A stretch of DNA of 64,000 nt, taken from Permianibacter aggregans (lineage in GTDB: Bacteria; Pseudomonadota; Gammaproteobacteria; Enterobacterales; Permianibacteraceae). A program made the position numbers and the translations under genes. This document shows positions 23,745 to 44,112 of this stretch, piece by piece (the first letter of the stretch is position 1; every line of letters begins with the position of its first letter). Under the pieces are notes generated by a model. That model was not told the DNA's origin. It saw nothing but the letters and a program-made list of their open reading frames with translations, and did not search any database. The stretch covers positions 558,001 to 622,000 of the forward strand of contig NZ_CP037953.1 in assembly GCF_009756665.1 (NCBI RefSeq), in the 5' to 3' direction.

Positions 23745-24755
23745 TCACCAACGACCGGTGGCTCCACCGCCACCGGATGAGCCGCCACCAAAGCCACCAC
23801 TGGAACCACCTGATTGCGAGTGACGAACAAATCGACTCCAATGATGCTGACAATGTTGGCAGGTGATATTCAAGTAATAACCGCCGGCTGCCGGTGAGTA
23901 CGGTGTGCGCTCAGATTTTCCGGTGTGCTTGCGACATTGCGGGCAGGTTTCGGCACTGGTAAACCAAGCTTTATACGGAATGATTTCGACGTTGTCGCAG
24001 TAGGTGCATTTCCAGACATCGTAATCGACTGAACCCAATGACTCTTCTTTTTGCTGGCCTTTGTCCAGATGTCGATCATCGATATCTTCCGACAGGCGCA
24101 CCATCGCACCCAGACAGCGCTGGCATTGTCGTGGTTTGTTACGTTGGTGACGACGGAACCAGACAAGACCCGCGCCACCAGTCAACGCCGCAGCACCGCC
24201 TAATCCCAGTAGCCACAATACGGGACCCGAATCGGATTCAACGGGTAATGGACTTTCCGGCGAACGATGCAATTGCTCGAAACCATCAAGCGCTCGATGC
24301 ATCGCCTCATACCATTGCTGTTCGCGGAAAAGTGGAACCAGCTTTCGATCCATCAGCCTTTGCATATTGCCGTCATGCTCGCGGCCATAGAACTTGCCGA
24401 GCTCAATACGTGCTTCCCGATCGGCAACGATGATCAGCAGCATGATGCCATCGTTGCGCTCGCGGTTGCCTACGCCCCATTCATTGAACAGCGCGGTCGC
24501 GTAGGATTCGATCGAGCGCTGTTGCCAGTCAGCGGATTTTTGCTGCTGGGTAACCAGCGTGATTTCAAGACCACGCTCACTGCGAATCGAGCGCAGCCTC
24601 TTACGCAGCGATTCGCGTTCGGACTCGCTGAGCAGATTGGCGAAATCATTGACGTAGGGTTCGATGGGCCGCGGCAAATCGCCCGCCGATGCCGTCAGCG
24701 CACAAAACCACAGCAGGATCAGGAAACCGTTACTGCTGCAACATAAACGTTTCAT
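23745..24755 (-). CDS. TPM-domain (YgcG-like) membrane protein with zinc-ribbon region
   Basis: This 336-residue protein has a signal peptide (near residues 5-25), then a TPM domain (about 30-155). The TPM hallmarks are VNDFANLLSESERESL, GLEITLVTQQQ, FNEWGVGNRERNDGIMLLI and ARIELGKFYG. A membrane segment follows near 185-203. A cytoplasmic zinc-binding region contains four CxxC pairs (CQRC, CTYC, CPQC, CQHC), and the tail is rich in Gly and Ser and ends GGGGATGRW. TPM domains occur in acid-phosphatase-like and membrane-repair-associated proteins; no activity is proven here. The ATG at 24755 overlaps the 3' end of pelG by 26 bases, which implies translational coupling to the Pel operon. Confidence 0.85.
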   Translation of the reverse strand: MKRLCCSSNGFLILLWFCALTASAGDLPRPIEPYVNDFANLLSESERESLRKRLRSIRSERGLEITLVTQQQKSADWQQRSIESYATALFNEWGVGNRERNDGIMLLIIVADREARIELGKFYGREHDGNMQRLMDRKLVPLFREQQWYEAMHRALDGFEQLHRSPESPLPVESDSGPVLWLLGLGGAAALTGGAGLVWFRRHQRNKPRQCQRCLGAMVRLSEDIDDRHLDKGQQKEESLGSVDYDVWKCTYCDNVEIIPYKAWFTSAETCPQCRKHTGKSERTPYSPAAGGYYLNITCQHCQHHWSRFVRHSQSGGSSGGFGGGSSGGGGATGRW

Positions 24756-26100
24756 ATTCGAGCCGATTGAATTTTTGCGACAGCATGAAAAGCCCAAGGA
24801 AGGCGCTGAACGTCACCGACACGGCAAAACCGTAACCGAAGGTTTCGGCGCCGAGGAACAACGTGGCCGAGGTCAACACCAGATTCGACAGGAAGAAGCT
24901 CAAGGTAATGACCAGCACTTCGCGGCGGGCATCGAGGTAGAACAATACGTTCAGAATCGCCATCAGCAACACCTGGACGCTGACCGCAACGACATCGATA
25001 TAGAACAGGTAGATGTACAGTGGCGAAATGCCGACCGCTGCCAAGAGATCACGGCCCCATAGCAGACAGAGCACGACGGTCAAGCCCTGCACTTTGAAGA
25101 TCTCGTAGATGCCTTGACGCGCCGTGTAAACCATCTGGTCACGACGATATTCGATATGCATCAGCGTATCGCCTTCGCGCACGGCACGATAAAAGCGCTC
25201 GTATTGCTCGGCGAAATCGGCCTCCATGCGCACCAGGAACACGGCCATGCCCGGCAAAATGAACAAGTAGGCCAGGAAAATCGGCAGGTCGTAAATAATC
25301 GAGGCGCGCAGCGGACCGATCACTGGTTCAGATGTGTACGGTACAAACCAGAAAATAAATTTATCGACCCAGACACCGAGATAATAAAGCGTGCCGACCG
25401 CGAACAGGCTGTAAAAACTTTTACGCCGTTCGAGAAAGTCGAAACGCAGAAAGGTTTGGCCTGGATACTCACGAATGATGTGGCGCAGGAATGCGAACAA
25501 CAAATAGCTGTGGCCAATCAATACACCGGTCAGCAAACCTTCCAACTGCCAGCGGGAAAATGCCAGCGCAATCAGAATCGCCAGCAGATAACCGGTCGCC
25601 AGCGTACGAACAATACGCCGATAGGCTTTCATGCCAGACAGGAAAATCAGCGCCAGCCAGAGCCCACTGAGCACGACGAAATTGGCAATCAGCAATAGTC
25701 TGAGTAATAGCGATCCGCTGAACATCAGGGCCACAACCGGCACTGACCACAAGAAGCCGCCGGCCATCGTCAGCAGCAGCACCCCCATCAAATTCGGCAG
25801 CACATCGGCTTGCGCTTTCGCGTAAGCCTGATCGGCAACAAAACGGGTAAACATCAGCTGCATGCCGCCAGTCCAGATCAGCGAAAGCGCCATCAGATAC
25901 GTGACACAAATCTGGAAGGCGTTGACATGGGTTTGCGCGACGCCAAGCACAACAGCAAGCACACCAATGGCCATGACGCCAAGAATCGACAGCACCCATG
26001 GGCCACCGCTGACCAAGCCGGCGTAACCATAGGCTTTCAGTACATCCCAGTAGCTGTCGCGCTCCAGAATCTTGCGAATTTCAAATCCGATACCGGCCAT
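24730..26100 (-). CDS. pelG: Pel exopolysaccharide inner-membrane transporter PelG
   Basis: This 456-residue polytopic protein has about 12 transmembrane segments and belongs to the Wzx/MOP-like flippase group specific to Pel. It begins MAGIGFEIRKILERDSY, the typical PelG start, and contains the conserved YYLGVWVDKFIFWF and SIIYDLPIFLAYLFILPGMAVFLVRMEADF blocks. With PelD, PelE and PelF it should form the synthase complex that moves the partially acetylated amino-sugar polymer across the inner membrane. The start lies 2 bases after the pelF stop, preceded by a G-rich ribosome-binding site. Confidence 0.96.
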   Translation of the reverse strand: MAGIGFEIRKILERDSYWDVLKAYGYAGLVSGGPWVLSILGVMAIGVLAVVLGVAQTHVNAFQICVTYLMALSLIWTGGMQLMFTRFVADQAYAKAQADVLPNLMGVLLLTMAGGFLWSVPVVALMFSGSLLLRLLLIANFVVLSGLWLALIFLSGMKAYRRIVRTLATGYLLAILIALAFSRWQLEGLLTGVLIGHSYLLFAFLRHIIREYPGQTFLRFDFLERRKSFYSLFAVGTLYYLGVWVDKFIFWFVPYTSEPVIGPLRASIIYDLPIFLAYLFILPGMAVFLVRMEADFAEQYERFYRAVREGDTLMHIEYRRDQMVYTARQGIYEIFKVQGLTVVLCLLWGRDLLAAVGISPLYIYLFYIDVVAVSVQVLLMAILNVLFYLDARREVLVITLSFFLSNLVLTSATLFLGAETFGYGFAVSVTFSAFLGLFMLSQKFNRLEYETFMLQQ

Positions 26101-26102
26101 GG

Positions 26103-27644
26103 TCAGCGCCCCCCGCTCGCCGCTTCCGGCGCGGAATCGGTTTGCAGCGTATCGACATACAGCTGGCGATACGCTGCAAACATCATTTGATCATCGTAGT
26201 AACGCTTGACCCGCTGCAAACCGGCTTGTTGTGCAGCACGCCATTCTGCGCCATCACTTAGCAAGGCGTACGCGGCATCCGCCGTTGCTTCCGGATCAGC
26301 GATGGCTACGACGCGACCGGCGGCGCCCAACGCCCGATCATCCTCACCACTGCCTTCGATCAATTCCCGGCAGGAACCGACATCGGTGGCGACACAAGGC
26401 AGGCCACTGGCAAACGCTTCCAATAGCACCAGCGGCAGTGCTTCGCTGATCGAGGTCAGCACCATCAAACCGAGTTGCGGCAGAATGTCGGCGACGTTTT
26501 GAAAGCCCAGGAATTTAACTTTGCCTTCAAGGCCAAGGCTGCGCACCAGCTCCTTGCACTCTTCGACATAGTCTTCGTCCTCGTCTTCTGGACCAACAAT
26601 CCAGCCTTCGGCCTCTGGCAGTTTGTCGAGCAAGGCGCGCATCGCCCGAATAAAGGTTTTGATGTCCTTGATTGGCACAACCCGACCGACCAGCCCAAGC
26701 ACCGGCGGTATACCTTCTTTTCTCACCTGCAAGACTTTTTCGTAGCGCGGCAGATTGATGCCGTTGGTGATCACCTTGGTTTTTTCCGCCGGTGCACCGT
26801 CGGCAATTTGGCGCAGGCGATTACCTTCATATAGACTGACAATCGGCGCGGCTTGCGCATAAGCCATGCGGCCAATCTGTTCAAAAAACTTGATCCACAA
26901 ACCACGGATGTAACCCATCTCGTCGTGCAGCGTATTGCTGACGTCGTCGTTGTAGTCACGAATCCAGGTCGCTTGAGCCAAATCGATTTTACGTTCTTTG
27001 GTATAGATGCCGTGCTCGGTCAAAATAAACGGCGTGCCACGTTGCAAACGCAGCATGGCGCCAAGCAAACCGGCGTAGCCGGTGGAAATCGCATGCAGCG
27101 CTTTGACCTTTGGCAGTGTTTTGGCAATTTCCGTCAACACGAACAGCGGTGCGTGCATCGTGCGTATCGCCCAAAAGTAATCGACGAATGACGGCTCGGT
27201 GCAACGACTGCGGTATTGCTCGGTGATGTAATCCCAGCTGGCTTCGCTATAGAGAAAGTCTTCGTGGCTGACGCCGTTCTTGGCGCCGAGCTGTTTGAAC
27301 GCGCGCATCATCGTTTCGACCGGCATTGCGTTCTGATCGCGCATTTGTTCATGCAGTTCGCCGATTTCATCAAAGGCTTTCTTGTTGCCGCGCCGTGACT
27401 TGGTCGGATATCGCTTGCTGTCGAGCAAAAAATGCGTTTCAAAATGGGTGACATTGGGCGGAAACTGGTATTGCGCCTTGTCGTACATTTCCGGTTCGCC
27501 GCCGATGAAAATCACGGCGAATTTCAGTTCCGGCAAACCGCTGATGATCTGATGCACCCAGGACGAGACACCGCCGCGCACGTACGGATAAGTGCCTTCC
27601 AGCAGCAGTGCGATATCGGCGACGTAGGTTTCTTTTTTGCTCAT
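26103..27644 (-). CDS. pelF: Pel polysaccharide glycosyltransferase PelF
   Basis: This 513-residue cytoplasmic GT4-family glycosyltransferase is thought to polymerise Pel. The PelF N-terminus DIALLLEGTYPYVRGGVSSW is clear. Further features are LTEHGIYTKERKIDL, the retaining-transferase block LGLVGRVVPIKDIKTFI and the nucleotide-sugar-binding EAFASGLPCVATDVGSCREL. The ATG at 27644 overlaps the pelE stop as ATGA and has GGTGGA upstream; another in-frame ATG lies at 27656. The length is typical of PelF. Confidence 0.96.
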   Translation of the reverse strand: MSKKETYVADIALLLEGTYPYVRGGVSSWVHQIISGLPELKFAVIFIGGEPEMYDKAQYQFPPNVTHFETHFLLDSKRYPTKSRRGNKKAFDEIGELHEQMRDQNAMPVETMMRAFKQLGAKNGVSHEDFLYSEASWDYITEQYRSRCTEPSFVDYFWAIRTMHAPLFVLTEIAKTLPKVKALHAISTGYAGLLGAMLRLQRGTPFILTEHGIYTKERKIDLAQATWIRDYNDDVSNTLHDEMGYIRGLWIKFFEQIGRMAYAQAAPIVSLYEGNRLRQIADGAPAEKTKVITNGINLPRYEKVLQVRKEGIPPVLGLVGRVVPIKDIKTFIRAMRALLDKLPEAEGWIVGPEDEDEDYVEECKELVRSLGLEGKVKFLGFQNVADILPQLGLMVLTSISEALPLVLLEAFASGLPCVATDVGSCRELIEGSGEDDRALGAAGRVVAIADPEATADAAYALLSDGAEWRAAQQAGLQRVKRYYDDQMMFAAYRQLYVDTLQTDSAPEAASGGR

Positions 27645-28621
27645 CGCTTCCACCATGCTTTGACTTGGGCAAAATCGCGTCCGAGTTCGCCACTGCGCTG
27701 GCTTTCGGCCAGGTATTCGCGCACCGCATTGAAGCGGCGCTGGCGAAACGCGACTTCGGCAAAAAACGGCGCCAGCACATCATTGGCTACTCCGAGTTCG
27801 CCGGCCTCATAGAGCGCCGCTTCCGCTGCCATCACTTCATCAGCAGCCAGCAGCATGCGCGCATATAACAACTGACTGCTGCCATCCGGCGCCAGCTCAA
27901 GACCCTGCGACATATAACGGCGCGCCGTGTGCAACCAATGTGCGCGCACGGCGCCTTGCACCAGATTGTGATACACCAGTTCCCAACACAGAGCGGCCAG
28001 TGTTTTCAGATACGGTGCTCGTTGCCTTGCCGGCACTTCCTGCAAATCTTCGGTGAGTTCGGTAATGCGTTCATTCAATTTTTTCTCGGCGCTGTCCATC
28101 ATCGCGTAAGCGAGCAAGCGCACATCATCAACCCGATCGCGCAATGCCAGCGACCAAACCGGCACCGCTTCATGCGCTGACATATAGCGAGTCGCCATCA
28201 CCGCTTTCAGTCGTTTTAGCGGTCGCTCGGCGTAGCGAACGATTTGCCTGAGTGCGCCCTGACTATAGGGCGGCGAGGCGTAAATAACCGGTGGTGAAAA
28301 CGGCAGCTCAGCCAAGGTAATCGTGCGAATCGAGCGCTCCAGCCGCGAACGTGGTGAACGTAAACCGGCAACCAGACCGGCATAAAGACCAAGCGCACCG
28401 ACCACCGGTAACATCCATAGCAGTGCAATCAAAAACCACAGGCTGCGGGTCACCGGCAATTTGTAACGGCGCGGCAATTGATGCCAGAACGCCACGGCCA
28501 ATGCATACGAAGCGATTGAATGCAGCAGCAGCGCCAGCCACCAGAATGTCGGCGCAAACAACACCAGCAGCAGTGTTAGCGCTTCGGCGCCGATACCGAG
28601 CCAGGGTGCCAGCGGGCGCAT
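27641..28621 (-). CDS. pelE: Pel biosynthesis inner-membrane protein PelE
   Basis: This is a 326-residue protein with two or more N-terminal hydrophobic segments (about residues 8-45 and 60-85), followed by a soluble helical part with TPR-like character (about 170-320). It lies between PelD and PelF, the usual position of PelE, which links PelD to the synthase. The sequence is poorly conserved in this family, so the call rests mainly on topology, length and position. The ATG at 28621 overlaps the pelD stop (TGATG); the TTG just before it is not needed. Confidence 0.88.
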   Translation of the reverse strand: MRPLAPWLGIGAEALTLLLVLFAPTFWWLALLLHSIASYALAVAFWHQLPRRYKLPVTRSLWFLIALLWMLPVVGALGLYAGLVAGLRSPRSRLERSIRTITLAELPFSPPVIYASPPYSQGALRQIVRYAERPLKRLKAVMATRYMSAHEAVPVWSLALRDRVDDVRLLAYAMMDSAEKKLNERITELTEDLQEVPARQRAPYLKTLAALCWELVYHNLVQGAVRAHWLHTARRYMSQGLELAPDGSSQLLYARMLLAADEVMAAEAALYEAGELGVANDVLAPFFAEVAFRQRRFNAVREYLAESQRSGELGRDFAQVKAWWKR

Positions 28622-29895
28622 CAATGCGATTCCAGTTGATGAATGACCGCCGGATCGATGTCACCGACTTCGATCAATTCAGAGTCCAGCCCTGCAGGCA
28701 AATTGGCCGACTCGCGCTGCAGCCAGTTTCTGGCACCGAGCGTGTCGGTCAACGGCAATAACAACCAGACGACGACGTGGTTGTTCTCGCGGGTGATGCA
28801 GACCATATCAAGCGCACGAATATGGGCTTTGATGGTTTCAAACGCTTTGCTGACTGGCTCGTGTTCGCCGGAGAACTTGATCAGCATCGCCGGTTGTTTG
28901 AATACTTTCTGATCGCGACGAACACGATCAAAGGCTTTGATGAAACGCGCCACCGAGGTGGTTGCAGAACCGTAAAGCAAGTGATCAATACCGTGCGCGG
29001 CGAGCACCGCCAACAGCTTCAAACTGCTTTCATGAAACGCGAAAAACGGCATCGACTTGACGACCAGCATCGCGTGAATTTCGCCGGCAGCATCGACCAT
29101 CGGCAGCGCCAGCAACAAACCACTTTGTTCGGCCACCGGCGCACTGATCATATTGACGGCCGCAAGCTCACCGTTATCGAGCGCAGCCCGGACAATCGGG
29201 TCATCGGTTTCCAATGTGAATTCAGCGCCATAAGTCGCCAGCGGGGTATCCAGCGCCAAGCGATTGTTTTTGATCGGGTAAATCGCCGCCCGTTCAAGAC
29301 TGCCGTATTCAACCAGCAGTGCCAGCAATTTTTGCAGCGACTCTGGCGTCAGGCCGTCAATGGCATGCAGCGTACTCTGCAAACGCAAAATGCCTTCGCG
29401 CAAACTCAAACCGCTATTTGCCACCGTTTGTTCCAGCCGATCATGCGATAAACGCAACAACTGATAACTGCGGGTGAATTCTTCCAGTCGTTCGGCCCGG
29501 TATTGATTGGTGCCAGCGAGGCGACGTAAACGGCGTTCCCAAACGTCGCGAAATTCACCAGCAACCATCGCGACGACCACAACCCCAATGGCCCAAGGCA
29601 ATGGAAACTCTTCAGCGATTTGCAGCTGTTGATTGATGGCAACACCGAGCGCCGCCAACACCAGCAGCGCGCTGACAAATCCATGAGCAAAACCGTAACG
29701 CAAACCGGCCAGCAACGGCCCTAGCATCGGCCACGGAAACCCTTGGGTCAGACGGAACGGATCCTGTGGTCCGGTTACGTAGGAAACGACGACGGCAACG
29801 GCGGTCAGCACAAAGGTTTCCACCCAGCTGCGCCACGGCGAGACGTTGACATTGACGTTGACGGCATCGACGCCATCCATCCAGGGTTTTCTCAC
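28621..29895 (-). CDS. pelD: Pel biosynthesis c-di-GMP receptor PelD
   Basis: This 424-residue inner-membrane protein is known in Pseudomonas to activate Pel synthesis on binding c-di-GMP. It has about four membrane segments in the first 110 residues (FVLTAVAVVVSYVTG; PMLGPLLAGLRYGFAHG; VVVVAMVAGEF), a helical linker, a GAF domain (about 165-310) and a degenerate GGDEF domain at the C-terminus. The sequence RALD at about 360-363 is a candidate for the RxxD c-di-GMP site; this is by analogy only. The GTG at 29895 overlaps the pelB stop as GTGA, with AGGAG 11 bases upstream. An ATG at 29880 is an alternative. Confidence 0.93.
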   Translation of the reverse strand: MRKPWMDGVDAVNVNVNVSPWRSWVETFVLTAVAVVVSYVTGPQDPFRLTQGFPWPMLGPLLAGLRYGFAHGFVSALLVLAALGVAINQQLQIAEEFPLPWAIGVVVVAMVAGEFRDVWERRLRRLAGTNQYRAERLEEFTRSYQLLRLSHDRLEQTVANSGLSLREGILRLQSTLHAIDGLTPESLQKLLALLVEYGSLERAAIYPIKNNRLALDTPLATYGAEFTLETDDPIVRAALDNGELAAVNMISAPVAEQSGLLLALPMVDAAGEIHAMLVVKSMPFFAFHESSLKLLAVLAAHGIDHLLYGSATTSVARFIKAFDRVRRDQKVFKQPAMLIKFSGEHEPVSKAFETIKAHIRALDMVCITRENNHVVVWLLLPLTDTLGARNWLQRESANLPAGLDSELIEVGDIDPAVIHQLESH

Positions 29896-32600
29896 GGTGT
29901 TGTTGGCTCCTGTTTGGAACGGGTATTCAGCGCCACATGAATGGCGGCCAGGCTTTCGCGGCAAATCGGCAGCTCACTGGCCAACGTGCTGGTGTTGACC
30001 GGTGCGCTGCCGGCAAACCAGCGGTTGGCGCGGTCGACATCATCAAGCGTCAACGGCAGTGTGCCGGAAACGGCCGGACCCGCCGGCTGCAAGACCAGGC
30101 TCTGGGCGACGGCATTGATCATCTGCTGCACGATAGGCATGCGGTTTTCGCGCACGGCGTCGGCGAAATCTTCCCAGGCCGATAGCAGCAGCCGTTCGCG
30201 CTGACGCATCAGGGCAAAAAAGCGAGCGTTGTCGAGTGGCTTGACGATATTCCAGCCGGAACGCAAATCCTGCCAGACCTCGACTTCGTCTTCATCGAGC
30301 GACACCACTTTTGGGTCGTGCACACCATAAAAATAGTCGGCGAGCCGAGCTGGATGCTGGCCGTTCTGGGTGATGACGCCGCCTTGGCCAATTGAACGCA
30401 ATACCTGCAGACGTATCGCATTGGCATGGGCTGGGCAGCCAACCCACTCGATATTGTCGGCCAGCGTCAGGTTCCAGAAGAAATCCTTTGGCCGCGCCTG
30501 CAGGCTTTGCATGAACCAGCCAGCAGCCGACTGCGGCCGGCCCAAAGTCAGTTCGGCCGCGGCCAGCGCCTCGGCCAGTGGCGGCGACACCGCGCCCTGC
30601 TGGCGATAGCCCTGCACTGCCGCTTCCAGCGCCGTCGCGTCGACAGTCGGTTCAGCCAGCAGCAACCAGATAATCGCTTCGCTGACTTCCGGGTCCTGAC
30701 CACGCAGCCGCAGGGTTTCTTTTAAAGCTTTGCGCGCCGCATCGCGATTGCCGGCGGCCATTTTGCGCACAGCGCTGTACATCCAGTAATCCGGCGCTTG
30801 TTGCACCTGTTCCGGCCGAGTTTCGGCCAGCGCCAGCCAGCGGTCGAGCTCCACCCAATTCTTGCGCTGGAACGCAAAGCGCATCAGCCGTTGCAAATCG
30901 CTGATCCGGCCGAGTCGCTCCCAGCCGTAGCGCGCCAGCCGCTCCAGCTCGCGGTCATCGCGGTTGCGCCGGGCCAGTTGCTGAAGCCGGTCAACAATGG
31001 TCGCATCATCGGGCCGGTAGACCAGCGCCTCGGCCAAAGCCTTGCTGGCGTAGGTATCACGGCCAAGCTGCCAGGCCAGATCGGCAAGCAGCAGCCAGTA
31101 GTTTTCGGTTTCCTGTTCCGGTGGCGCCGAGAAACGACGCAACAGCACATCAAGCGCCCGCTCCGGCTCGCCGGCGGCATCCAGTGTGCGGGCCAGGCGC
31201 AGTTCGGCTTGAATGGTATCGACGATGTCGGCGCCATGTAGCGCCGCCAGTGCTTCATCGGGTTCGCCCATCCGGACCAGCAGCCGCGACAAGGTGCGTT
31301 TGGCGGTGACCGAATCGGCAAACTGCAGCAGGTGTCGGCGCAGTTCCTGCTCCAGATGCAGCGGCTCGACCTGGCGCAAACCCGCTTCGATATAGGCAGC
31401 CCACTCCAGTTCGTTCAGCTCACGCCGGGTCGCCAGCAGTTCGATGAGCTGCATCATCGCGGCGTCTTCGGGCAGGTCGCGAGCCAGCGCAAAGGCTCGG
31501 GACTCCGCTTCCGGGTCCGGGCCGGTCATTGCCAGTGACAGCCACATTTCCAAGGCTGGCCGGCTCTGGCTGTTCCAGTCATAAACATGGGCGAGCAAGC
31601 GGTGACGCTCACTACCGGGCTGAACATGCTCACGCAGCAACGGCGCCAACTCGAGCGCGCCAGCCAAGTCGCCAGTCGCAATGCGCAGCCGCAGCAACCG
31701 CTCGGTCAGGTCCGGCTCCGGCGCCGCTTGATGCACCGCAGTCAGCCAACGTAGCGCGTTTTGCTGGTCGCCGAGCGGTTCGGCGATATCGGCAGCCAGC
31801 TGATACAACTCGGTATCCGGACTGGCGCCGGCCATGATGCGTAAGGTAAGCGCCAAGGCATTTTCATCAAGCCCGGCTTGCAGCAGTGCCCGCAAGGTGT
31901 TTTTCGCCAGCGTCTGTTTCAGCTCAGGCGAAGGCTCCAGCAAAAAGGCGCCGGCATAGGATTGGGCCGCCTGTTTCGGGGCATTGGCCGCCAGATAATG
32001 ACGGCCAGCGAGGCGCCACCAGCTGGCTTTGCGCGCCGGTTCGGCCGGCACGGTAATGGCCAGATGCTCGAAGGTCTGGGCCAATACCTGCGGCTCACCG
32101 AATTGCTCAGCCAGTGTCGCCACTTGATCGAGCGCGCTTTCGTTCGGCGCGGTCAGCAGCAATCGGCTGATCAGATCGGCGATCTGCTGACGCAGGGTTT
32201 GCTGGCGTTCTTCACTCGGTCGGCGATAAAGCTGTTGCAGCGATAACTTCAGATCGGCCAGACGGATTTCGAAGCGCAGCGGTTCGCGTTCAATCCATTG
32301 CAGCGGCTCAATGACGCCACGTGCTTCGTCGAGCAAACCGGCCTCGGTCAGTACCTGCACCAACGACAGTCGCAACGGCGCATTGTCCGGGTCGGACTGC
32401 ACCAACACTCGCAGGTAAGCGACCGACAACGCATCTTTGGCGGACAGGTTGGCTGGGTTTCGAAACGCTGGCTGACGCGGGAACAACACCCAAAGCGCGA
32501 CGATGATGACGGCGCCCATGATCAGCAGCGCTGGCGCATTCAGCAGTTTTTCCCGCGCCGGTTGCTGGCGCGGTTTGCGATCAGCGGTTTCAGCAGTCAA
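29892..32600 (-). CDS. pelB: PelB-like TPR protein lacking the outer-membrane barrel
   Basis: This 902-residue protein has one N-terminal membrane anchor (about residues 28-46, LIMGAVIIVALWVLF) and then a long array of TPR-type helices rich in Ala, Leu and Arg to about residue 720. In Pseudomonas, PelB is about 1,190 residues: a periplasmic TPR scaffold plus a C-terminal beta-barrel that exports Pel. Here the last 180 residues are helical or mixed, with no alternating barrel strands and no terminal aromatic strand, so the porin part is missing. The TTG at 32600 is the start, with GAGGA eight bases upstream, and it overlaps pelA by 11 bases. Confidence 0.82.
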   Translation of the reverse strand: MTAETADRKPRQQPAREKLLNAPALLIMGAVIIVALWVLFPRQPAFRNPANLSAKDALSVAYLRVLVQSDPDNAPLRLSLVQVLTEAGLLDEARGVIEPLQWIEREPLRFEIRLADLKLSLQQLYRRPSEERQQTLRQQIADLISRLLLTAPNESALDQVATLAEQFGEPQVLAQTFEHLAITVPAEPARKASWWRLAGRHYLAANAPKQAAQSYAGAFLLEPSPELKQTLAKNTLRALLQAGLDENALALTLRIMAGASPDTELYQLAADIAEPLGDQQNALRWLTAVHQAAPEPDLTERLLRLRIATGDLAGALELAPLLREHVQPGSERHRLLAHVYDWNSQSRPALEMWLSLAMTGPDPEAESRAFALARDLPEDAAMMQLIELLATRRELNELEWAAYIEAGLRQVEPLHLEQELRRHLLQFADSVTAKRTLSRLLVRMGEPDEALAALHGADIVDTIQAELRLARTLDAAGEPERALDVLLRRFSAPPEQETENYWLLLADLAWQLGRDTYASKALAEALVYRPDDATIVDRLQQLARRNRDDRELERLARYGWERLGRISDLQRLMRFAFQRKNWVELDRWLALAETRPEQVQQAPDYWMYSAVRKMAAGNRDAARKALKETLRLRGQDPEVSEAIIWLLLAEPTVDATALEAAVQGYRQQGAVSPPLAEALAAAELTLGRPQSAAGWFMQSLQARPKDFFWNLTLADNIEWVGCPAHANAIRLQVLRSIGQGGVITQNGQHPARLADYFYGVHDPKVVSLDEDEVEVWQDLRSGWNIVKPLDNARFFALMRQRERLLLSAWEDFADAVRENRMPIVQQMINAVAQSLVLQPAGPAVSGTLPLTLDDVDRANRWFAGSAPVNTSTLASELPICRESLAAIHVALNTRSKQEPTTP

Positions 32601-35337
32601 GGCTCAGTTCCTCTGCTGCCTGCGCCGCCGACACCACGACCCGCAAACCGCCCTGCACGACACGGGCGGGTAACGCCTGTTCATTGATCTGCACTCGACA
32701 ACCAGCCGGGATCTGCAGCTCGGCCTGACCACGCGCCTGCAAACGGAACGTGGCCTGATTCGCCTTACTCAACTGCCAATGCTGAAGCGGCGCACTGGCA
32801 TGGATCAGCAACGGCCGATTTTTCTCCGCCGCTGAGACAAACTCCAGTTCGCCAGCGGCGGAGGTCAGGTGCAGATAACGTTGGTCATGGTGTTCACGAA
32901 AGCCGGCAACATCATCGCTGATGGCGACCAAACCAGCAGAAGCTGGCAGCCGCAATGTGCGCAGTTCACCGGCGTACACCTGCCAGCGGCCATCGATATC
33001 ACGGGCCAGACTCGCTTGTTGAAAGCTGCGGGCGCGGCGGACAAATTCATCAAGCCAGAGCGGCAGAGTTTCTTCACGCTGTTGCTGGCGAATGGCTTCA
33101 TCAATGACGGTGGCGGCGCCGTTACGCAGCAGCGCATCGGCATGCAGCGACAGCGAGGCCGGGCGCCAGCGCTGCGGTCCATCGAGCAACTGATTCCACT
33201 CGATGACCTTGCGGTAATTCAATAGCTCGCCATACCAAAGCCGGGCGAACAACGGTTCAGCCACCAGCGGTGTCAGCACCTGAACACCCCAGTCGCTGGG
33301 CTTCAGCAGCGGCGACAGATCGGCAAGGCTTAAGCTACCGGTTTGCCAGTGCAGGCCACCACCACCAATATGCAGCATGTCGCCCTGCTCGGCGGCAGCC
33401 ACGGCGGCCGGTGGCGCCTTGCCGTCGCCGGACCAGATCAGCAGCGGTGCCGCCTGGTCGTCAATACTCTGCAAAAATGCCAGCGTACCGGCGGTTTCCC
33501 GCGAAAGTTCAGCGGCATAGCCAGGCACCTGTACCGAGTATTTATAGAGCGCCTGATCGGCATCGCGTTCGCCGATAAACACTGGCCAGTAAAAAGGATG
33601 GGAATAAGTATGGCTGGCCAAACGCACATGCGGCAGCGCGGCCAGTTGCTGGACTTTCTGCTTTTGTTCGTCGTCGCGGATTTCCGCTTCGATGATGCCG
33701 ATGGTGACCGGCTCCTGATATTGATTCAACAGCGACCGCAGCTTGTCGTAGGCGCTGACACCAGTTGCGGCATCGGTGCGGAACAATTGATCAGCGCGGA
33801 TTTCCAGCAAGCTGATGCGCCGGCCATTTTCGGTAGTCAGGTCAAACGCCGGCTGCAACGGCAAGCGCAAAGCCGCACGCAGGAATGCCACCGGATCGAG
33901 CAGCCATTGGTGCTGGCCACTGGCGTTTTCGTTGATTAAATGGGGGTGTACAGCATAGCCACCGCTGGCGGTGACAGCGACCGGATGAAAGCGTTGGTTT
34001 TCGCCGCTCAAGGTCAACCAGGGTTCACCCAGCGCCTCGATGCGCAAATCCGGGGTGCCGCTACCGACTACCGGCAGATGCTCCGGCCGAGCCAATAACT
34101 GATGCGCCGATTCGGCGGTCAAGGCATGGGTGATCGGTTGATTGTCGCCGGCGTAGCCGACCAGTCGGCGACAGGCGACGCCGGCCGGCACATTGCCGAG
34201 CAACACCACCGGCAAACCGGCATCGGCCTCACGCTGCAAACGCGAACAAACGCCACCGTAGCGGCCTTCCAAGTCGGTAGGCAGCCAGCTGACGACACCG
34301 CTGTAGCGACCGAGCAATGGCTCGATCGGCAAGCCTTGCTGGTCGATATACCAGTAATCAATGGCTAGCCCGAGGTATTCCAGCGGCGTTGCCACGTGTT
34401 TGAACAGCGGCTGGTTCCACTGTTCGGCCGGGCTGCCGTCAACAATGGCCAGCACCCGGCGCGGCATCAGCCGGACCCGGCCCTGGCCCAGCCAGGTCAA
34501 ATCACCATTGGCGACCCAGGGCATAAAGCCCAATTCGAGAATCTGCTTCGCGGTTTTTTCCGCCTCGGCCCATTCCCCGGGCTCGACGTAATCGAGCACC
34601 GTGACCGGCAGATTGAACTCGTCCTGGGCTCGGCGTAATTGGTTGATTAGCCATTGCCGGGTTTCCGGTTTGGTCGGTGCGTGCTTGCCGGTCAGCGGGT
34701 CGAAGCCGTGAAACAGCGACTCGGCGATCATGCCATCGGCATGCTTGGCGACTTTATCCAACACTTCAAAGCCGCGGTTCAGCAGCAGCTTGACGCCCGG
34801 GTAGCGGCGTTTGACCTCGGCCAGCAACAATTGCAGGCCCTGCTCTTGCTGCTCACGGCGCTTGCCGTCGCGCGCCGCCAATAAATAGCTGTCGACAGTA
34901 TCGAGAAAAAAGGCGCGGTAGCCTTGCTGCCAGAGCAGGCCGAAATGCTGGTCAAGCAGGTAGTCGCGCCAGGCCGACGAGGACATATCCATGACCAGAC
35001 TGTTCCAGGTCGGGTTGGTGCCGATCGACCACTTGCTTTTAATCCGGCTGATGTCTTCGCTGTTGCGCGCCACTTCGCCTATCGACACGTAGGCAAAAAT
35101 CGTTGAAGGCAAAGCCAGTAATTGGGTTCGTTCGTGGGCGAGCACCTGGCTGGGTTGAATGACGATCTGCTCGAAATGGCGCAGATCATCAACCGGCGGC
35201 CGCGAGCCGTAGTAAAAAACGATATCGCGCTCAGCCAACGGCGGCACCGTCGCCACGGCGGGAAAAGTCAGCGTCAGCAATGACAGCAGCTGGAAAAACA
35301 TGCGCACAAAACGCCGTGCTGGCGAAAATCCATTCAT
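32590..35337 (-). CDS. pelA: Pel polysaccharide deacetylase/hydrolase PelA
   Basis: This 915-residue periplasmic bifunctional enzyme is the first gene of the operon. After a signal peptide (membrane segment near residues 14-30) comes a glycoside-hydrolase domain (about 35-290; FYYGSRPPVDDL, FLDTVDSYLLAARDG), with Glu206 in MIAESLFHGF at the position of the PelA catalytic glutamate. A reductase-like middle follows, then a CE4-type deacetylase domain with SHTYSHPFYW near residues 573-582 as metal ligands, and a beta-rich C-terminus. The ATG at 35337 starts the signal peptide; an upstream in-frame extension of 123 codons is rejected as it covers the promoter region. PelA trims and deacetylates Pel during export. 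Confidence 0.94.
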   Translation of the reverse strand: MNGFSPARRFVRMFFQLLSLLTLTFPAVATVPPLAERDIVFYYGSRPPVDDLRHFEQIVIQPSQVLAHERTQLLALPSTIFAYVSIGEVARNSEDISRIKSKWSIGTNPTWNSLVMDMSSSAWRDYLLDQHFGLLWQQGYRAFFLDTVDSYLLAARDGKRREQQEQGLQLLLAEVKRRYPGVKLLLNRGFEVLDKVAKHADGMIAESLFHGFDPLTGKHAPTKPETRQWLINQLRRAQDEFNLPVTVLDYVEPGEWAEAEKTAKQILELGFMPWVANGDLTWLGQGRVRLMPRRVLAIVDGSPAEQWNQPLFKHVATPLEYLGLAIDYWYIDQQGLPIEPLLGRYSGVVSWLPTDLEGRYGGVCSRLQREADAGLPVVLLGNVPAGVACRRLVGYAGDNQPITHALTAESAHQLLARPEHLPVVGSGTPDLRIEALGEPWLTLSGENQRFHPVAVTASGGYAVHPHLINENASGQHQWLLDPVAFLRAALRLPLQPAFDLTTENGRRISLLEIRADQLFRTDAATGVSAYDKLRSLLNQYQEPVTIGIIEAEIRDDEQKQKVQQLAALPHVRLASHTYSHPFYWPVFIGERDADQALYKYSVQVPGYAAELSRETAGTLAFLQSIDDQAAPLLIWSGDGKAPPAAVAAAEQGDMLHIGGGGLHWQTGSLSLADLSPLLKPSDWGVQVLTPLVAEPLFARLWYGELLNYRKVIEWNQLLDGPQRWRPASLSLHADALLRNGAATVIDEAIRQQQREETLPLWLDEFVRRARSFQQASLARDIDGRWQVYAGELRTLRLPASAGLVAISDDVAGFREHHDQRYLHLTSAAGELEFVSAAEKNRPLLIHASAPLQHWQLSKANQATFRLQARGQAELQIPAGCRVQINEQALPARVVQGGLRVVVSAAQAAEELSLDC

Positions 35338-39065: not shown

Positions 39066-40037
39066 ATGACGTTGTCACCGCCACTTTTTGGACGCGCCCA
39101 GAACAAGAAAAGCCAGCTGAGCCTAGGCTTGCGGCTCGGTTCCCAGCAGTTTTCCCTGGCTTGCCTGCAAGCGCAGCCTGAGTCCCCGCTGCTGCAGCGG
39201 GTGCACACCGAAGCTACCTCCGGCCTGGAAGACTTCAGCCAAAAGCTGACGCGGCTGGTTGATCAGTGGCAGTTGCACGGCGAAATCGCCCGCGTTGTTT
39301 TGAACAATGATCTCTATCGGCTGCTGCAGGCCGACACCCCGAACGTGCCGGAACCGGAGCGCGATGCCGCGCTAGCCTGGTCGCTGAAAGACGTGCTCGA
39401 TTTTCCGGCCACCGAAGCCGTGATCTCCAGCTTTCTGCCGCCGGTATCACCACGTGGAGGTAATGAGCGCTTGTTTGTCGCCGCCGCCCACAAAGCGAAA
39501 ATTCGCCCGTATGTGGAGAAAATTGCCGCCGCCGGGTTGAAACTGGACACCATCGATATCCCGGAACTCTGCGCTCGCAATCTACTGACGAAACTGAATC
39601 CGCCGATTCCCAGCATTGCGATGTTGGTGCAAAGCGGTCGCGGCGCGGTGATTTATGTTTTTCACGACAACGAGTTGGTCATTTCCCGGCCGCTGGCCGG
39701 CATTGGTGATATGGCGGTGTTGTTCTCCGGCTATGAGAACCGGCAATTAATGGACCAACTGGTGTTGGAGATTCAGCGCACGCTCGACTTTTACGAAAGC
39801 CAGATCGGCCGCCGCCCGATTGGCAAGCTGGTGTTGCCGCCACTGCCGGATGAGCTGACACCGCTACCGGAATTTTTGCGACAAAACCTGAATGTCGCGC
39901 TACTGTCGCTGGATATCGCCACACTGTTGCCGACCGATGAATCGATCGACAAAACCGCGTTACCGCAAGCCTGGCTTGCCGTCGGCGCAGCGTTGCGCGA
40001 GCTGCCGGTTTCGGAGGTGCAACGTGCAACAGGTTAA
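39066..40037 (+). CDS. mshI: MSHA biogenesis protein MshI (PilM-like)
   Basis: This 323-residue cytoplasmic protein has the actin-like fold of PilM/GspL-type assembly factors (LSLGLRLGSQQFSLACLQ at the N-terminus, then YRLLQADTPNVPEPERDAALAWSLKD). It should form the inner-membrane assembly platform with the following PilN-like and MshJ proteins. It is the first gene of the MSHA operon; no mshH precedes it. The next gene overlaps by 14 bases. Confidence 0.9.
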   Translation: MTLSPPLFGRAQNKKSQLSLGLRLGSQQFSLACLQAQPESPLLQRVHTEATSGLEDFSQKLTRLVDQWQLHGEIARVVLNNDLYRLLQADTPNVPEPERDAALAWSLKDVLDFPATEAVISSFLPPVSPRGGNERLFVAAAHKAKIRPYVEKIAAAGLKLDTIDIPELCARNLLTKLNPPIPSIAMLVQSGRGAVIYVFHDNELVISRPLAGIGDMAVLFSGYENRQLMDQLVLEIQRTLDFYESQIGRRPIGKLVLPPLPDELTPLPEFLRQNLNVALLSLDIATLLPTDESIDKTALPQAWLAVGAALRELPVSEVQRATG

Positions 40038-40626
40038 CCTCTTTTTACCGGAGTTTGTGCCGGCCCCTGCCCGGCTTGGCTTACGCGCCGTTGGCATGGC
40101 AGCGCTGGCGATGATCATGCTGATCGTGCTGATCAGTCTGTTTCTGCTGAAGCAATTGAATGAAGCACGCGCCGTCACCAGCGAGCTGAATCAGAAAACC
40201 CAGGCCATCACCGAAGCGATCACCCGCACCCAGGGCGACCGCCAGGCCCAGATCGACGCCGCGGCGCGCAAGGAAGGATTGCAAAAGCAACTGGAGCTGC
40301 AGCGGCAATTGCTGGCCGATCTGGAGCAACGGGCACAGGTCGATGTGCGCGGTTTCTCGCCGTTGCTCGATGCGCTGGCGCGTACACCGATGCCGCAGAG
40401 CTGGCTGACCGAGATTGATATGCGCGGCCAACAATTTCTGCTGAAAGGTGAAACCACCAACGCCAAAATGCTGCCGGATTGGATCGCCGCGCTTCAGCAA
40501 AATGATTACCTGCACAATAAATCGATGAGCTACCTGCAGATTCAACCGGTTGAGCAAAAACCCGGTGTGCTGCAGTTTGAGCTTGGCGATCGCCTGGACG
40601 GAGCGCAAGACGATGAATCTCGGTAG
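40024..40626 (+). CDS. PilN-domain MSHA assembly protein (second MshI-type gene)
   Basis: This 200-residue bitopic inner-membrane protein has a short cytoplasmic N-terminus (QQVNLFLPEF, the PilN-type peptide that docks on PilM), one membrane segment (about 20-42), a coiled coil (about 45-105) and a ferredoxin-like periplasmic domain with PMPQSWLTEIDMRGQQFLLKGET. The GTG at 40024 is preceded by GGAGGT at five-base spacing and overlaps mshI. Earlier in-frame ATGs are inside mshI and do not fit the family start. Confidence 0.88.
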   Translation: MQQVNLFLPEFVPAPARLGLRAVGMAALAMIMLIVLISLFLLKQLNEARAVTSELNQKTQAITEAITRTQGDRQAQIDAAARKEGLQKQLELQRQLLADLEQRAQVDVRGFSPLLDALARTPMPQSWLTEIDMRGQQFLLKGETTNAKMLPDWIAALQQNDYLHNKSMSYLQIQPVEQKPGVLQFELGDRLDGAQDDESR

Positions 40627-41263
40627 TCATTTCCGCCGCCTCGATACCCGTTTTCTGGCGCTCAGCAAACGGGAACGGGTGATCATGCTGGTGCTGACCA
40701 TCGTGGTGCTGTTGGCAATCGGTCAATTCGCGATTTTTCTGCCGTTGCAAAACACCATCCGGGCTGAACAGCAAATGCAGGAACAACGCCGACGCGATAC
40801 CGAATTATTGGAAAATGAATACGCGCAGTTGCAGAGCTTTGTTGCCGGCCAGAACGATGTCGCCATTGTCGCGTCACTGGAACAAAAACTGGCCGATATT
40901 CAGCAACGCATGACACAACTCGGCAACCGGATGGTCGCGCCTTCGGAAATGGTCGAGCTGCTGCAGCAATTGCTGTCGAAAGAATCCGGCATGCGCGTTG
41001 TCGCGCTGGAAAAACTACCACTGGAACGCGACAACAATGGCGAACCGAATGGCCAACCCGACAGCCAGCTATTCCGACATCGTCTGCGCCTGACGCTGTA
41101 TGGTAATTACCTGGAAAACCTGCGCTATCTGCAGAGAATGGAAGCGTTGCCCTGGCAGGTGTTTTGGGACCGTTTGCATTATCGCGTCGAGCAATATCCG
41201 AACGCCTATGTCACGATTGAAATCGCGACGCTGGCTGATAACAAGGAGTGGATCGGTGGTTAA
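40613..41263 (+). CDS. mshJ: MSHA biogenesis protein MshJ (PilO/GspM-like)
   Basis: This 216-residue bitopic protein has one membrane segment near residues 24-44 (VIMLVLTIVVLLAIGQFAIF), a coiled coil (about 50-105) and a periplasmic ferredoxin-like domain ending in LPWQVFWDRLHYRVEQYPNA, which is characteristic of MshJ. The ATG at 40613 has GGAG upstream and overlaps the preceding gene by 14 bases. It should pair with the PilN-like protein in the alignment subcomplex. Confidence 0.9.
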   Translation: MNLGSHFRRLDTRFLALSKRERVIMLVLTIVVLLAIGQFAIFLPLQNTIRAEQQMQEQRRRDTELLENEYAQLQSFVAGQNDVAIVASLEQKLADIQQRMTQLGNRMVAPSEMVELLQQLLSKESGMRVVALEKLPLERDNNGEPNGQPDSQLFRHRLRLTLYGNYLENLRYLQRMEALPWQVFWDRLHYRVEQYPNAYVTIEIATLADNKEWIGG

Positions 41264-41594
41264 GTCGCTTCTTGGTTTACTGTTGCTGTTCGCGGTCAAC
41301 ACTGAAGCCGCGGAACTGCGCGACCCAACCCGACCGCTGTGGTCACCACCTTCCGAGGCGGCGGCGAGCAAACCCGCTGAGCCATTGTTGACAGCGGTGT
41401 TAATCCAACCGGACAAACGTTTGGCGTTGATTGGCGAGAAATATTACCAGGTTGGCGACACGGTGAACGGCGCTCGCCTACTGCAAATTGAATTCGATCA
41501 CGTGGTCTTGAGCGGCCGTAATGGAACGCAAAAACTGCTGCTGACCCCGACAATAAAAACCCGCCCAACGGCGGCAAAGGTAACACCTCTATGA
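41256..41594 (+). CDS. mshK: MSHA biogenesis protein MshK (PilP/GspC-like)
   Basis: This 112-residue exported protein has a signal peptide (VVKSLLGLLLLFAVNTEA) and a mature start of ELRDPTRPLW, the usual MshK/PilP-type 'RDPTRP' sequence. A single small beta domain (LTAVLIQPDKRLALIGEKYYQVGD, then LLQIEFDHVVLSGRNGTQKLLL) links the inner-membrane platform to the secretin. The GTG at 41256 has AGGAG eight bases upstream and overlaps the mshJ stop. Confidence 0.85.
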   Translation: MVKSLLGLLLLFAVNTEAAELRDPTRPLWSPPSEAAASKPAEPLLTAVLIQPDKRLALIGEKYYQVGDTVNGARLLQIEFDHVVLSGRNGTQKLLLTPTIKTRPTAAKVTPL

Positions 41595-43210
41595 TGACAA
41601 GCCCGAAAACGCTGCCCCTGTCCCTGATCAGCATCCTGTTGTTGAACGCTTGCCAATCGGTGCCACCGAAAGCGCGCGCGCCCGGGCCGGTAAGCGAAGC
41701 CATCGAAGCCAGTCAACAGGCGCAAACACCACCGCCGGTACCGCCGAAAGCGGTGATCGACAGCCTGATCCCTGATGCTCCGATCATCGCCGTCAATGAG
41801 CCGCGTTTCGACGTCAATGTCAGCGAGGCCGAGGCAGCCAAATTTTTCGCCGGATTGGTTAGTGGCAGCTCGTACAATATTGCTGTGCGGCCCGACGTCA
41901 AAGGCAATATTTCGCTGAGCCTGCGCAATGTCAGCGTACCGGAAGTCATGGAGATTGTTCGTGACGTGTATGGCTACGAATACGACCGTAAAGGCAACTT
42001 GTTTACCGTGCACCCCGCCGGTTTGCAAACGGCGATTATCCCGGTTAACTACCTGAACTTACAGCGCAAAGGCAGCTCGCAAACGCGGGTCAACTCCGGC
42101 CAAGTCGCCGATGCCGGCACCAGCGAAGGGCAATCCGGTGGCAGCTCACAAAGTAGCGGCGGCGGTACACGGCCAGAAATCGCGCCCGCCACTGACATTA
42201 AAACCACCAGTGAAGCCGACTTGTGGAAAGAGCTGCAAACAACATTGGCCTCGCTCGTAAGCGGCAATCCTGGCAGCAGCATCGTCGTTAATCCACAAGC
42301 CAGCTTGGTGGTAGTGCGCGCCATGCCACATGATTTGCGTAGTGTCCGTCAGTATTTGCAATCGGCCGAAGCGCATTTGCAGCGGCAAGTCATTCTGGAA
42401 GCGAAAATTTTGGAAGTGACGTTGAATGACGGCTTTCAGGCCGGCATTGATTGGACACGATTACACACCACTAACAGCGGTAACACGCTATCGGTAGGCC
42501 AGACCGGGCAAGTGCTGAACCTGCCCAGCGTCGCCAACCCGTTAAACGGCATGCTGACCACAGTGTTCAATAGTTCCGACTTCAATGCCACCATTGATTT
42601 ACTAAGCACACAAGGTACCGTGCAAGTACTGTCGAGCCCGCGCGTCTCCACGCTGAACAATCAAAAAGCGGTTATTAAAGTTGGCTCTGATGAGTTTTTC
42701 GTCACCGGCATTTCAACCACCACCGTGACCGGCGCAACCGCAGCGACCAGCACACCGAACGTCACGCTATCGCCATTTTTCTCCGGCATCGCGCTCGATG
42801 TCATGCCACAGATCAGTGAAGCCGGCGAAATCGTGCTGCATATTCACCCGACCGTTTCGGAAGTACGCGACCAAACCAAATCGCTGGAATTCGGCTCGGA
42901 AGTTTTCTCACTGCCACTGGCGCTCTCGACCGTGCGTGAAGCCGACTCGATTGTCCGCGCCCGTAGCGGCCAGATTGTCGTCATCGGCGGTCTGATGCAG
43001 GACAAACTGATCCAAAATGATTCCGGTGTGCCGTTCCTGAAAGACATTCCCTGGCTAGGCAAACTGTTCACCCAGCAGCGTGAAAGCCAGAACAAGAGCG
43101 AGCTGGTCATTCTGCTGCGCCCGGTTGTGACCGACGACACGGTATGGAAAAACGAAATTGATCGGGCACAGAAACAACTGAATGCACCATTGACAGGGAA
43201 CGGTTGGTAA
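41591..43210 (+). CDS. mshL: MSHA secretin MshL
   Basis: This 539-residue outer-membrane secretin is made as a lipoprotein (LISILLLNACQS, Cys near residue 17). The N-domains include VSEAEAAKFFAGLVSGSSYNIAVRPDVKGNISLSL-type STN/secretin_N repeats (about 75-140), then a Gly/Ser-rich linker (about 170-200). The C-terminal secretin domain (about 255-525) contains VILEAKILEVTLNDGFQAGIDW, VQVLSSPRVSTLNNQKAVIKVG and GQIVVIGGLMQDK. It overlaps mshK by 4 bases. Confidence 0.95.
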   Translation: MMTSPKTLPLSLISILLLNACQSVPPKARAPGPVSEAIEASQQAQTPPPVPPKAVIDSLIPDAPIIAVNEPRFDVNVSEAEAAKFFAGLVSGSSYNIAVRPDVKGNISLSLRNVSVPEVMEIVRDVYGYEYDRKGNLFTVHPAGLQTAIIPVNYLNLQRKGSSQTRVNSGQVADAGTSEGQSGGSSQSSGGGTRPEIAPATDIKTTSEADLWKELQTTLASLVSGNPGSSIVVNPQASLVVVRAMPHDLRSVRQYLQSAEAHLQRQVILEAKILEVTLNDGFQAGIDWTRLHTTNSGNTLSVGQTGQVLNLPSVANPLNGMLTTVFNSSDFNATIDLLSTQGTVQVLSSPRVSTLNNQKAVIKVGSDEFFVTGISTTTVTGATAATSTPNVTLSPFFSGIALDVMPQISEAGEIVLHIHPTVSEVRDQTKSLEFGSEVFSLPLALSTVREADSIVRARSGQIVVIGGLMQDKLIQNDSGVPFLKDIPWLGKLFTQQRESQNKSELVILLRPVVTDDTVWKNEIDRAQKQLNAPLTGNGW

Positions 43211-44112
43211 TGATCCGGTATCAGGAATTTTTTGGCCTGAACGCAGCGCCGTTCAGTCTGACGCCTGATACCCGTTTTTTCTGCGCGCTGACGCCGCACG
43301 TGCAGGCGCTGAATGTGCTGATGGTGGCACTCAGTCAACACGAAGGCTTTATCAAAATTACCGGCGAAGTCGGCAGTGGCAAAACCCTGCTATGCCGGAT
43401 GCTGCTGAATCGTCTGCATGGTCACCAGCCCTACGCCTATATTGCCAATCCAGCGTTATCGCCCACGGCGTTCAAAATGCAATTGGCCAGCGAGCTGGGG
43501 CTGAAACTGGAGCAAGACAGCGAGGCACAGCTCAATGGCAAAATTGAGCGACAGTTGCTGGCGCTGAATCAGCACGGTCATCCGGTTGTGCTGGTCATTG
43601 ATGAAGCACAAGCTCTGCCACTTGAAACCCTGGAAACGCTGCGACTTTTTTCCAATCTGGAAACCGAAACCGGCAAGCTGCTGCATATTGTGCTGTTTGG
43701 ACAACCGGAGCTAGATAAAAAATTGCAGCAGCCTTCCGTCCGGCAGTTGTTGCAACGAATCGCCTTTTCCTATCAATTAAAGCGTTTGCATCAGCATGAA
43801 GTGCAGCATTACCTGCAACATCGTTTACACATTGCCGGATACCAGGGCAAGCCGGTATTCGGCGTCTTGGCTTCCGCGAGCTTGCGTTTCTTCAGTCGCG
43901 GTGCACCGAGACTGGTCAATATCCTCGCGCAAAAATGCTTGCTGTTGGCCTACGCCGGACAACGCCAGCAGGTGCGAATGAGGGATACTTGGAAAGCCGC
44001 ACTGGATACCGATTCTGCTCGCTTACGTTTGATCCGATTGCTACGCCCGCTTGCCATGCTATTCGCGCTTGGCAGTGCCAGCGCGGCGTTGGCCTTTTGG
44101 AGTCTGTCGTGA
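43210..44112 (+). CDS. mshM: MSHA biogenesis ATPase MshM (ExeA-like)
   Basis: This 300-residue AAA ATPase of the ExeA/GspA family starts YQEFFGLNAAPFSLTPDTRFF, a family hallmark. Walker A is GEVGSGKTLLCRML (about residues 55-62) and Walker B is VVLVIDEAQAL. A single C-terminal membrane segment follows (about 278-298). It may help assemble or place the secretin in the cell wall. The ATG at 43210 shares its A with the mshL stop (TAATG); the TTG two codons earlier is not needed. Confidence 0.92.
   Translation: MIRYQEFFGLNAAPFSLTPDTRFFCALTPHVQALNVLMVALSQHEGFIKITGEVGSGKTLLCRMLLNRLHGHQPYAYIANPALSPTAFKMQLASELGLKLEQDSEAQLNGKIERQLLALNQHGHPVVLVIDEAQALPLETLETLRLFSNLETETGKLLHIVLFGQPELDKKLQQPSVRQLLQRIAFSYQLKRLHQHEVQHYLQHRLHIAGYQGKPVFGVLASASLRFFSRGAPRLVNILAQKCLLLAYAGQRQQVRMRDTWKAALDTDSARLRLIRLLRPLAMLFALGSASAALAFWSLS

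Follow-up and report, generated by a model that had tools for sequence, protein, structure and literature searches.

A pelABDEFG operon without PelC and without the PelB barrel in Permianibacter aggregans, Nitrosospira and Nitrosovibrio

The pel operon of Permianibacter aggregans raises the question of what becomes of a Pel-type polysaccharide when its known outer-membrane exit is missing. In Pseudomonas aeruginosa, the chain is led by PelB to PelA, acquires positive charge through deacetylation and is exported by PelC together with the anionic PelB barrel; PelC is proposed to act as an electronegative funnel for cationic Pel, and Pel output in this organism is reported to depend on each of the three: deacetylation, PelC and the barrel. 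We analyzed a window of 64,000 nucleotides (positions 558001-622000) from a 4.27 Mb genome that is assembled as a single contig and is 100% complete. An earlier note on this DNA had described an operon pelA-pelB-pelD-pelE-pelF-pelG with overlapping ends, and the open reading frames together with profile and PDB matches place the genes in this order on the minus strand (35337-24730), with ends that overlap or almost touch throughout the run:

32590-35337, minus strand: pelA, 915 aa, ATG at 35337; signal peptide, GH166 hydrolase and CE21 deacetylase
29892-32600, minus strand: pelB, 902 aa; anchor helix 22-39, TPR superhelix and alpha-rich C-terminal region
29892-29895, minus strand: GTGA overlap of the pelB stop and the pelD start, read from the sequence
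28621-29895, minus strand: pelD, likely GTG start at 29895; GAF and degenerate GGDEF domains, RxxD
27641-28624, minus strand: pelE, an open reading frame similar to pelE of relatives
26103-27656, minus strand: pelF, glycosyltransferase (NF038011, E 1.9e-234)
24730-26100, minus strand: pelG, inner-membrane exporter (PF16933, E 3.3e-148)

The core of the Pel biosynthetic operon, PelF and PelG, is therefore present according to Pfam/NCBIfam, and the genome profile search found no second PelG besides that of the window. The GGDEF domain of PelD is recognized by PF16963 (E 2.4e-6), and its c-di-GMP I-site RxxD is retained (RALD aligned to RGLD). A same-strand gene for a TPM-domain protein (window 23745-24797) overlaps the end of pelG; in the congener, too, such a gene (L043:14938-15960) lies next to pelG. 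Elsewhere in the window (39066-46891), plus-strand genes resemble, by their translations only, a pilus or type II secretion-like biogenesis cluster with PilM/N/O/P-like proteins and a secretin.

Residues 16-739 of PelB match P. aeruginosa PelB (9h80, E 1.3e-23) in a PDB sequence search; Pfam/NCBIfam detect TPRs, and both the N-terminal membrane helix (22-39 in the AlphaFold2 model) and the TPR scaffold are present. The AlphaFold2 model of the 902-residue protein (mean pLDDT 83) contains only helices and not a single strand of at least three residues, and Foldseek retrieves with it only generic TPR-like solenoids at low TM-scores. In the alignment with 28 canonical PelBs, which are mostly ~1050-1360 aa long (a few extracted open reading frames are longer or truncated by contig ends), the alpha-rich region is retained and conserved up to the barrel junction, and the protein ends exactly where the barrel would start. 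A C-terminal 16-strand barrel was thus detected in PelB neither by the alignment nor by the model nor by a barrel profile, as the earlier note had supposed when it named structure prediction as the check. The charge of the C-terminal region does not set this protein apart, since the clade and canonical distributions overlap. The only two cysteines of PelB, C722 and C880, are both invariant in the barrel-less clade described below, most canonical PelBs having none or one; judging from the sequence, a C722-C880 disulphide could possibly close the barrel-less end. The congener PelB (L043:6626-9640) carries an additional threonine/alanine-rich tail of ~80 residues after the alpha-rich region.

No open reading frame in the operon fits PelC. 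In canonical loci, pelB and pelD are separated by ~490-750 bp, a gap that usually holds a PelC lipoprotein frame of ~170-200 aa; here the 4-base GTGA overlap, common to nearly all clade members listed, occupies the place of the barrel-coding 3' end of pelB and of pelC. Because these two stretches are adjacent in canonical operons, barrel and PelC were plausibly lost in one contiguous deletion. A PelC profile (25 sequences) that recovered PelC in 3/3 canonical genomes gave zero matches in the whole genome at E<=0.1, so the missing pelC inferred in the earlier note holds genome-wide. Lacking both the PelB barrel and PelC, the system cannot use the PelBC exit.

The missing parts might still be supplied in trans by a complete canonical Pel system elsewhere, and such systems exist in relatives: four Nitrosospira/Nitrosovibrio genomes (L065, L066, L067, L069) carry, far from the barrel-less operon, another pel operon that encodes PelC and a barrel PelB of ~1190 aa. 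The profiles for barrel and PelC both recover their targets in canonical genomes, including the divergent second copies in these four, and the barrel profile (29 sequences) has zero matches in the genome of the window at E<=1. The window genome, the congener and seven other Nitrosospira/Nitrosovibrio have a single PelG each and neither PelC nor barrel (among the 11 Nitrosospira/Nitrosovibrio genomes, 7 have neither and 4 have both). As the assembly is one contig and 100% complete, supply in trans is refuted for the window's genome and we give it a negligible chance; the complete pelB-pelC pair for which the earlier note proposed a search was not found. The second operons (L185-L188) have a rearranged order, pelC-D-E-F-G-A; where the barrel pelB is visible, it does not adjoin pelC.

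Another explanation is that PelB is functionally split: a barrel of another family, encoded at an unlinked locus, would dock on the alpha-rich end and export a neutral or otherwise modified polymer. The conservation of this region up to the barrel junction and the purifying selection on it (see below) speak for such an arrangement, as does a fission of pelB recorded in aquatic thermophiles (PMC7112194), and candidate outer-membrane proteins exist, since every genome searched has at least one OPX protein and Alginate_exp-family barrels were also found. The individual candidates, however, fall away. A separate gene for a PelB-type barrel, as in a fission variant, was not found in the genome at E<=1, nor was a BcsC barrel in a profile search with an E. 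coli control, and the matches to PgaA, searched for with the same kind of control, are TPR stretches below the cut-off. The only OPX protein of the genome belongs to a complete XrtA/PEP-CTERM exopolysaccharide cluster, and its only Alginate_exp-like protein, at 468 kb, is an isolated porin with unrelated neighbours that matches one third of the model. The operon flanks of relatives share no recognized barrel gene that could serve as a substitute pore: Nitrosospira loci are flanked by GCV_T and GST genes, and in the window and the congener, pelA is preceded by two shared genes and pelG is followed by the TPM-domain gene. These absences rest on family profiles, which would not detect a barrel from an unrelated family. 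We regard the split as a serious contender that we would nevertheless bet against. The XrtA/PEP-CTERM cluster itself (G000:C1:2380111-2388000, L190) comprises genes for the OPX protein, a chain-length protein, a tyrosine kinase, an outer-membrane protein, a polysaccharide deacetylase and exosortase A.

The barrel-less pelABDEFG architecture is shared by the congener (L043) and by Nitrosospira and Nitrosovibrio (L056-L069, without L068, which is a Marinobacter). A profile made from the C-terminus of the clade's PelB identified barrel-less PelBs in 23/125 Nitrosomonadaceae, all with frames of 906-946 aa, and in 1/369 genomes sampled across the class of the window, namely the window's own. Ten of the Nitrosomonadaceae loci were read, and all ten have pelA-pelB-pelD without any PelC match. 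The comparison of loci suggested in the earlier note thus yields the same architecture in 24 further genomes, a recurrence that argues against chance. In a tree built from 98 PelF rows, those from barrel-less operons (15) group as a single clade with support 100. Within it, the PelB of the window is nearer to Nitrosospira PelB (~50% identity) than to that of the congener (42%), despite the homologous pel flanks of the latter, a pattern that would reflect either an exchange by horizontal transfer or rapid divergence in the congener. In Nitrosovibrio tenuis Nv1 (L069:6118-8907), ~2.8 kb with opposite-strand open reading frames lie between pelD and pelE, apparently an insertion.

One could read the operon as a degrading Pel remnant that makes nothing, given that barrel, lipoprotein and, as shown below, the catalytic base of PelA are missing and each is reported to be needed in P. 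aeruginosa. However, none of the genomes read, which come from two lineages, has an interrupted frame, the overlapping gene starts are kept, and the active-site change is uniform. In comparisons of related strains, pelA and pelB taken whole give dN/dS values of 0.08-0.15, and the C-terminal 165 residues of PelB alone give 0.12-0.22; across PelA, PelB, PelD, PelF and PelG the values span 0.03-0.2. Such strong purifying selection indicates that the shortened PelB is maintained rather than decaying; it largely refutes the remnant, which we consider highly improbable.

PelA, which the earlier note had passed over in this respect, carries a change that is new here. The protein matches Pseudomonas thermotolerans PelA (9cgy) over nearly its whole length (E 7e-120), and its AlphaFold2 model (pLDDT 88) superimposes on that structure with TM 0.81/0.90. 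The GH166 catalytic residues D160 and E218 are retained (FLDT and AESL motifs). In the CE21 domain, the MT1 motif is H-[IVL]-D-G-D in 66/66 aligned PelAs from outside the barrel-less group, comprising in P. aeruginosa numbering H526, the catalytic base D528 and the metal ligand D530. In barrel-less PelAs, the motif is [E/D]-[V/I]-R-[G/A]-D in 24/24 (14/14 aligned and 10/10 more). In the PelA of the window, the motif is E512-I-R514-A-D516 and closes a strand that is modelled with confidence; in the alignment, D528 is replaced by R and H526 by E, and the CE21 catalytic base and its H526 partner are thus absent. The metal triad D530, H600 and H604 (ligand motif SHTYSHP), the acid H761 and E723 are all retained in barrel-less PelAs. 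The active-site residues of PelA have been described as conserved across homologues (PMC12022489). The PelA of one second, canonical Nitrosovibrio operon retains D-G-D and has Q in place of H526.

Deacetylation may nonetheless persist through a rewired site, with a polymer that is still cationic Pel and leaves by another pore. Either E/D526 might serve as a relocated base activated by R528, so that the charges of the H526/D528 pair would be swapped, or the histidine of MT5 would be both acid and base, as in IcaB (PMC13254593), an enzyme that sets a precedent for catalysing the reaction with no free aspartate in MT1. The uniform, undecayed MT1 motif in 24/24 proteins, the retained metal ligands, E723 and H761, and the confident prediction of the MT1 strand in the model speak for this option. 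Set against it, exchange of the catalytic-base aspartate for alanine abolishes the esterase activity of PtPelA, and P. aeruginosa with D528A PelA makes no extracellular Pel, for which periplasmic degradation by GH166 was proposed (PMC10269871); moreover, neither of the components that handle cationic Pel, PelC and the anionic barrel, is left. We consider a rewired deacetylase unlikely.

With the exit pore and the ring protein gone and the PelA site altered, the sugar is either modified or leaves in a way not described so far. We propose, with a probability of roughly 45%, that these operons represent a derived, functional pelABDEFG lineage without the export module for cationic Pel, in which the chain is most likely cut by PelA in the periplasm. 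Synthesis and translocation of a GalNAc-type polymer by PelF, PelG, PelD and PelE, controlled by c-di-GMP, would continue, and the inner-membrane-anchored TPRs of PelB would still hold PelA in the periplasm. The chain would not be turned into the usual cationic Pel and would have no PelBC exit; most likely it would meet PelA on the PelB scaffold and be cut there by the intact GH166 domain. The product would presumably be an acetylated alpha-1,4-GalNAc oligo- or polysaccharide, retained or leaking through general porins. By analogy, the lineage resembles the P. aeruginosa D528A mutant made permanent, with the export parts lost too. The retention of the alpha-rich end speaks for a function of this part of PelB in docking, which makes an unrelated, unlinked pore nearly as likely, and a dedicated pore of this kind is a close second to the periplasmic product. 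In a broader formulation, which we offer tentatively and at somewhat less than even odds, the Gram-negative Pel pathway has been re-purposed towards a GalNAc polymer or oligosaccharide, non-cationic or newly modified, that acts in or from the periplasm, with a barrel-free PelB anchored in the inner membrane and a neofunctionalised PelA esterase domain bearing E/D-x-R-x-D instead of H-x-D-G-D. Since barrel loss, PelC loss and the PelA change all lie on one branch, their association counts as one event and is a correlation only. The system is a real variant barred from the PelBC exit; the profile searches found no exit pore that would bear out the variant secretion route suggested in the earlier note, and both outcomes foreseen there, another exit or a periplasmic or cell-associated polymer, are compatible with the data.

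These operons form a natural, conserved lineage without deacetylase base, PelC and barrel, found both in ammonia oxidisers and in the complete genome of an unrelated bacterium. The lineage makes it testable whether a requirement of the pore for a cationic chain is what links deacetylation to export. Searches based on PelC miss it, and the annotation of barrel-less genomes as 'Pel producers' may be wrong about the product.

No description of a barrel-less Pel variant was found in the open-licence literature, but several known systems share individual features with it. Nitrosospira multiformis, from the genus of the largest barrel-less group, is reported to have a duplicated pel operon with locus gain and loss (PMC7112194, Fig. 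5 ii), and the accessible portions of that paper make no mention of barrel loss or of a PelA active-site change. They also report pelB fission in aquatic thermophiles (Fig. 5 iii), where, as here, the TPR part lacks a fused barrel; PelB is split there, whereas no barrel gene was found in the genome of the window. The Bacillus cereus pelDEADAFG operon (PMC7112168, PMC13254593) likewise has neither an outer-membrane barrel nor PelC. The Gram-positive type of operon lacks PelB and has PelADA in place of full PelA, whereas the window operon, in a two-membrane cell, keeps a full-length PelA with its hydrolase and an anchored TPR PelB; Bacillus PelADA retains its catalytic aspartate, D262, unlike the PelA of the window. 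With P. aeruginosa pelABCDEFG, the operon shares the GH166 residues of PelA, the anchor helix and TPRs of PelB, the RxxD of PelD, PelE, PelF and PelG, and the gene order apart from pelC; it differs in having neither PelC nor the PelB barrel and in the change of MT1 from H-x-D-G-D to E-x-R-A-D.
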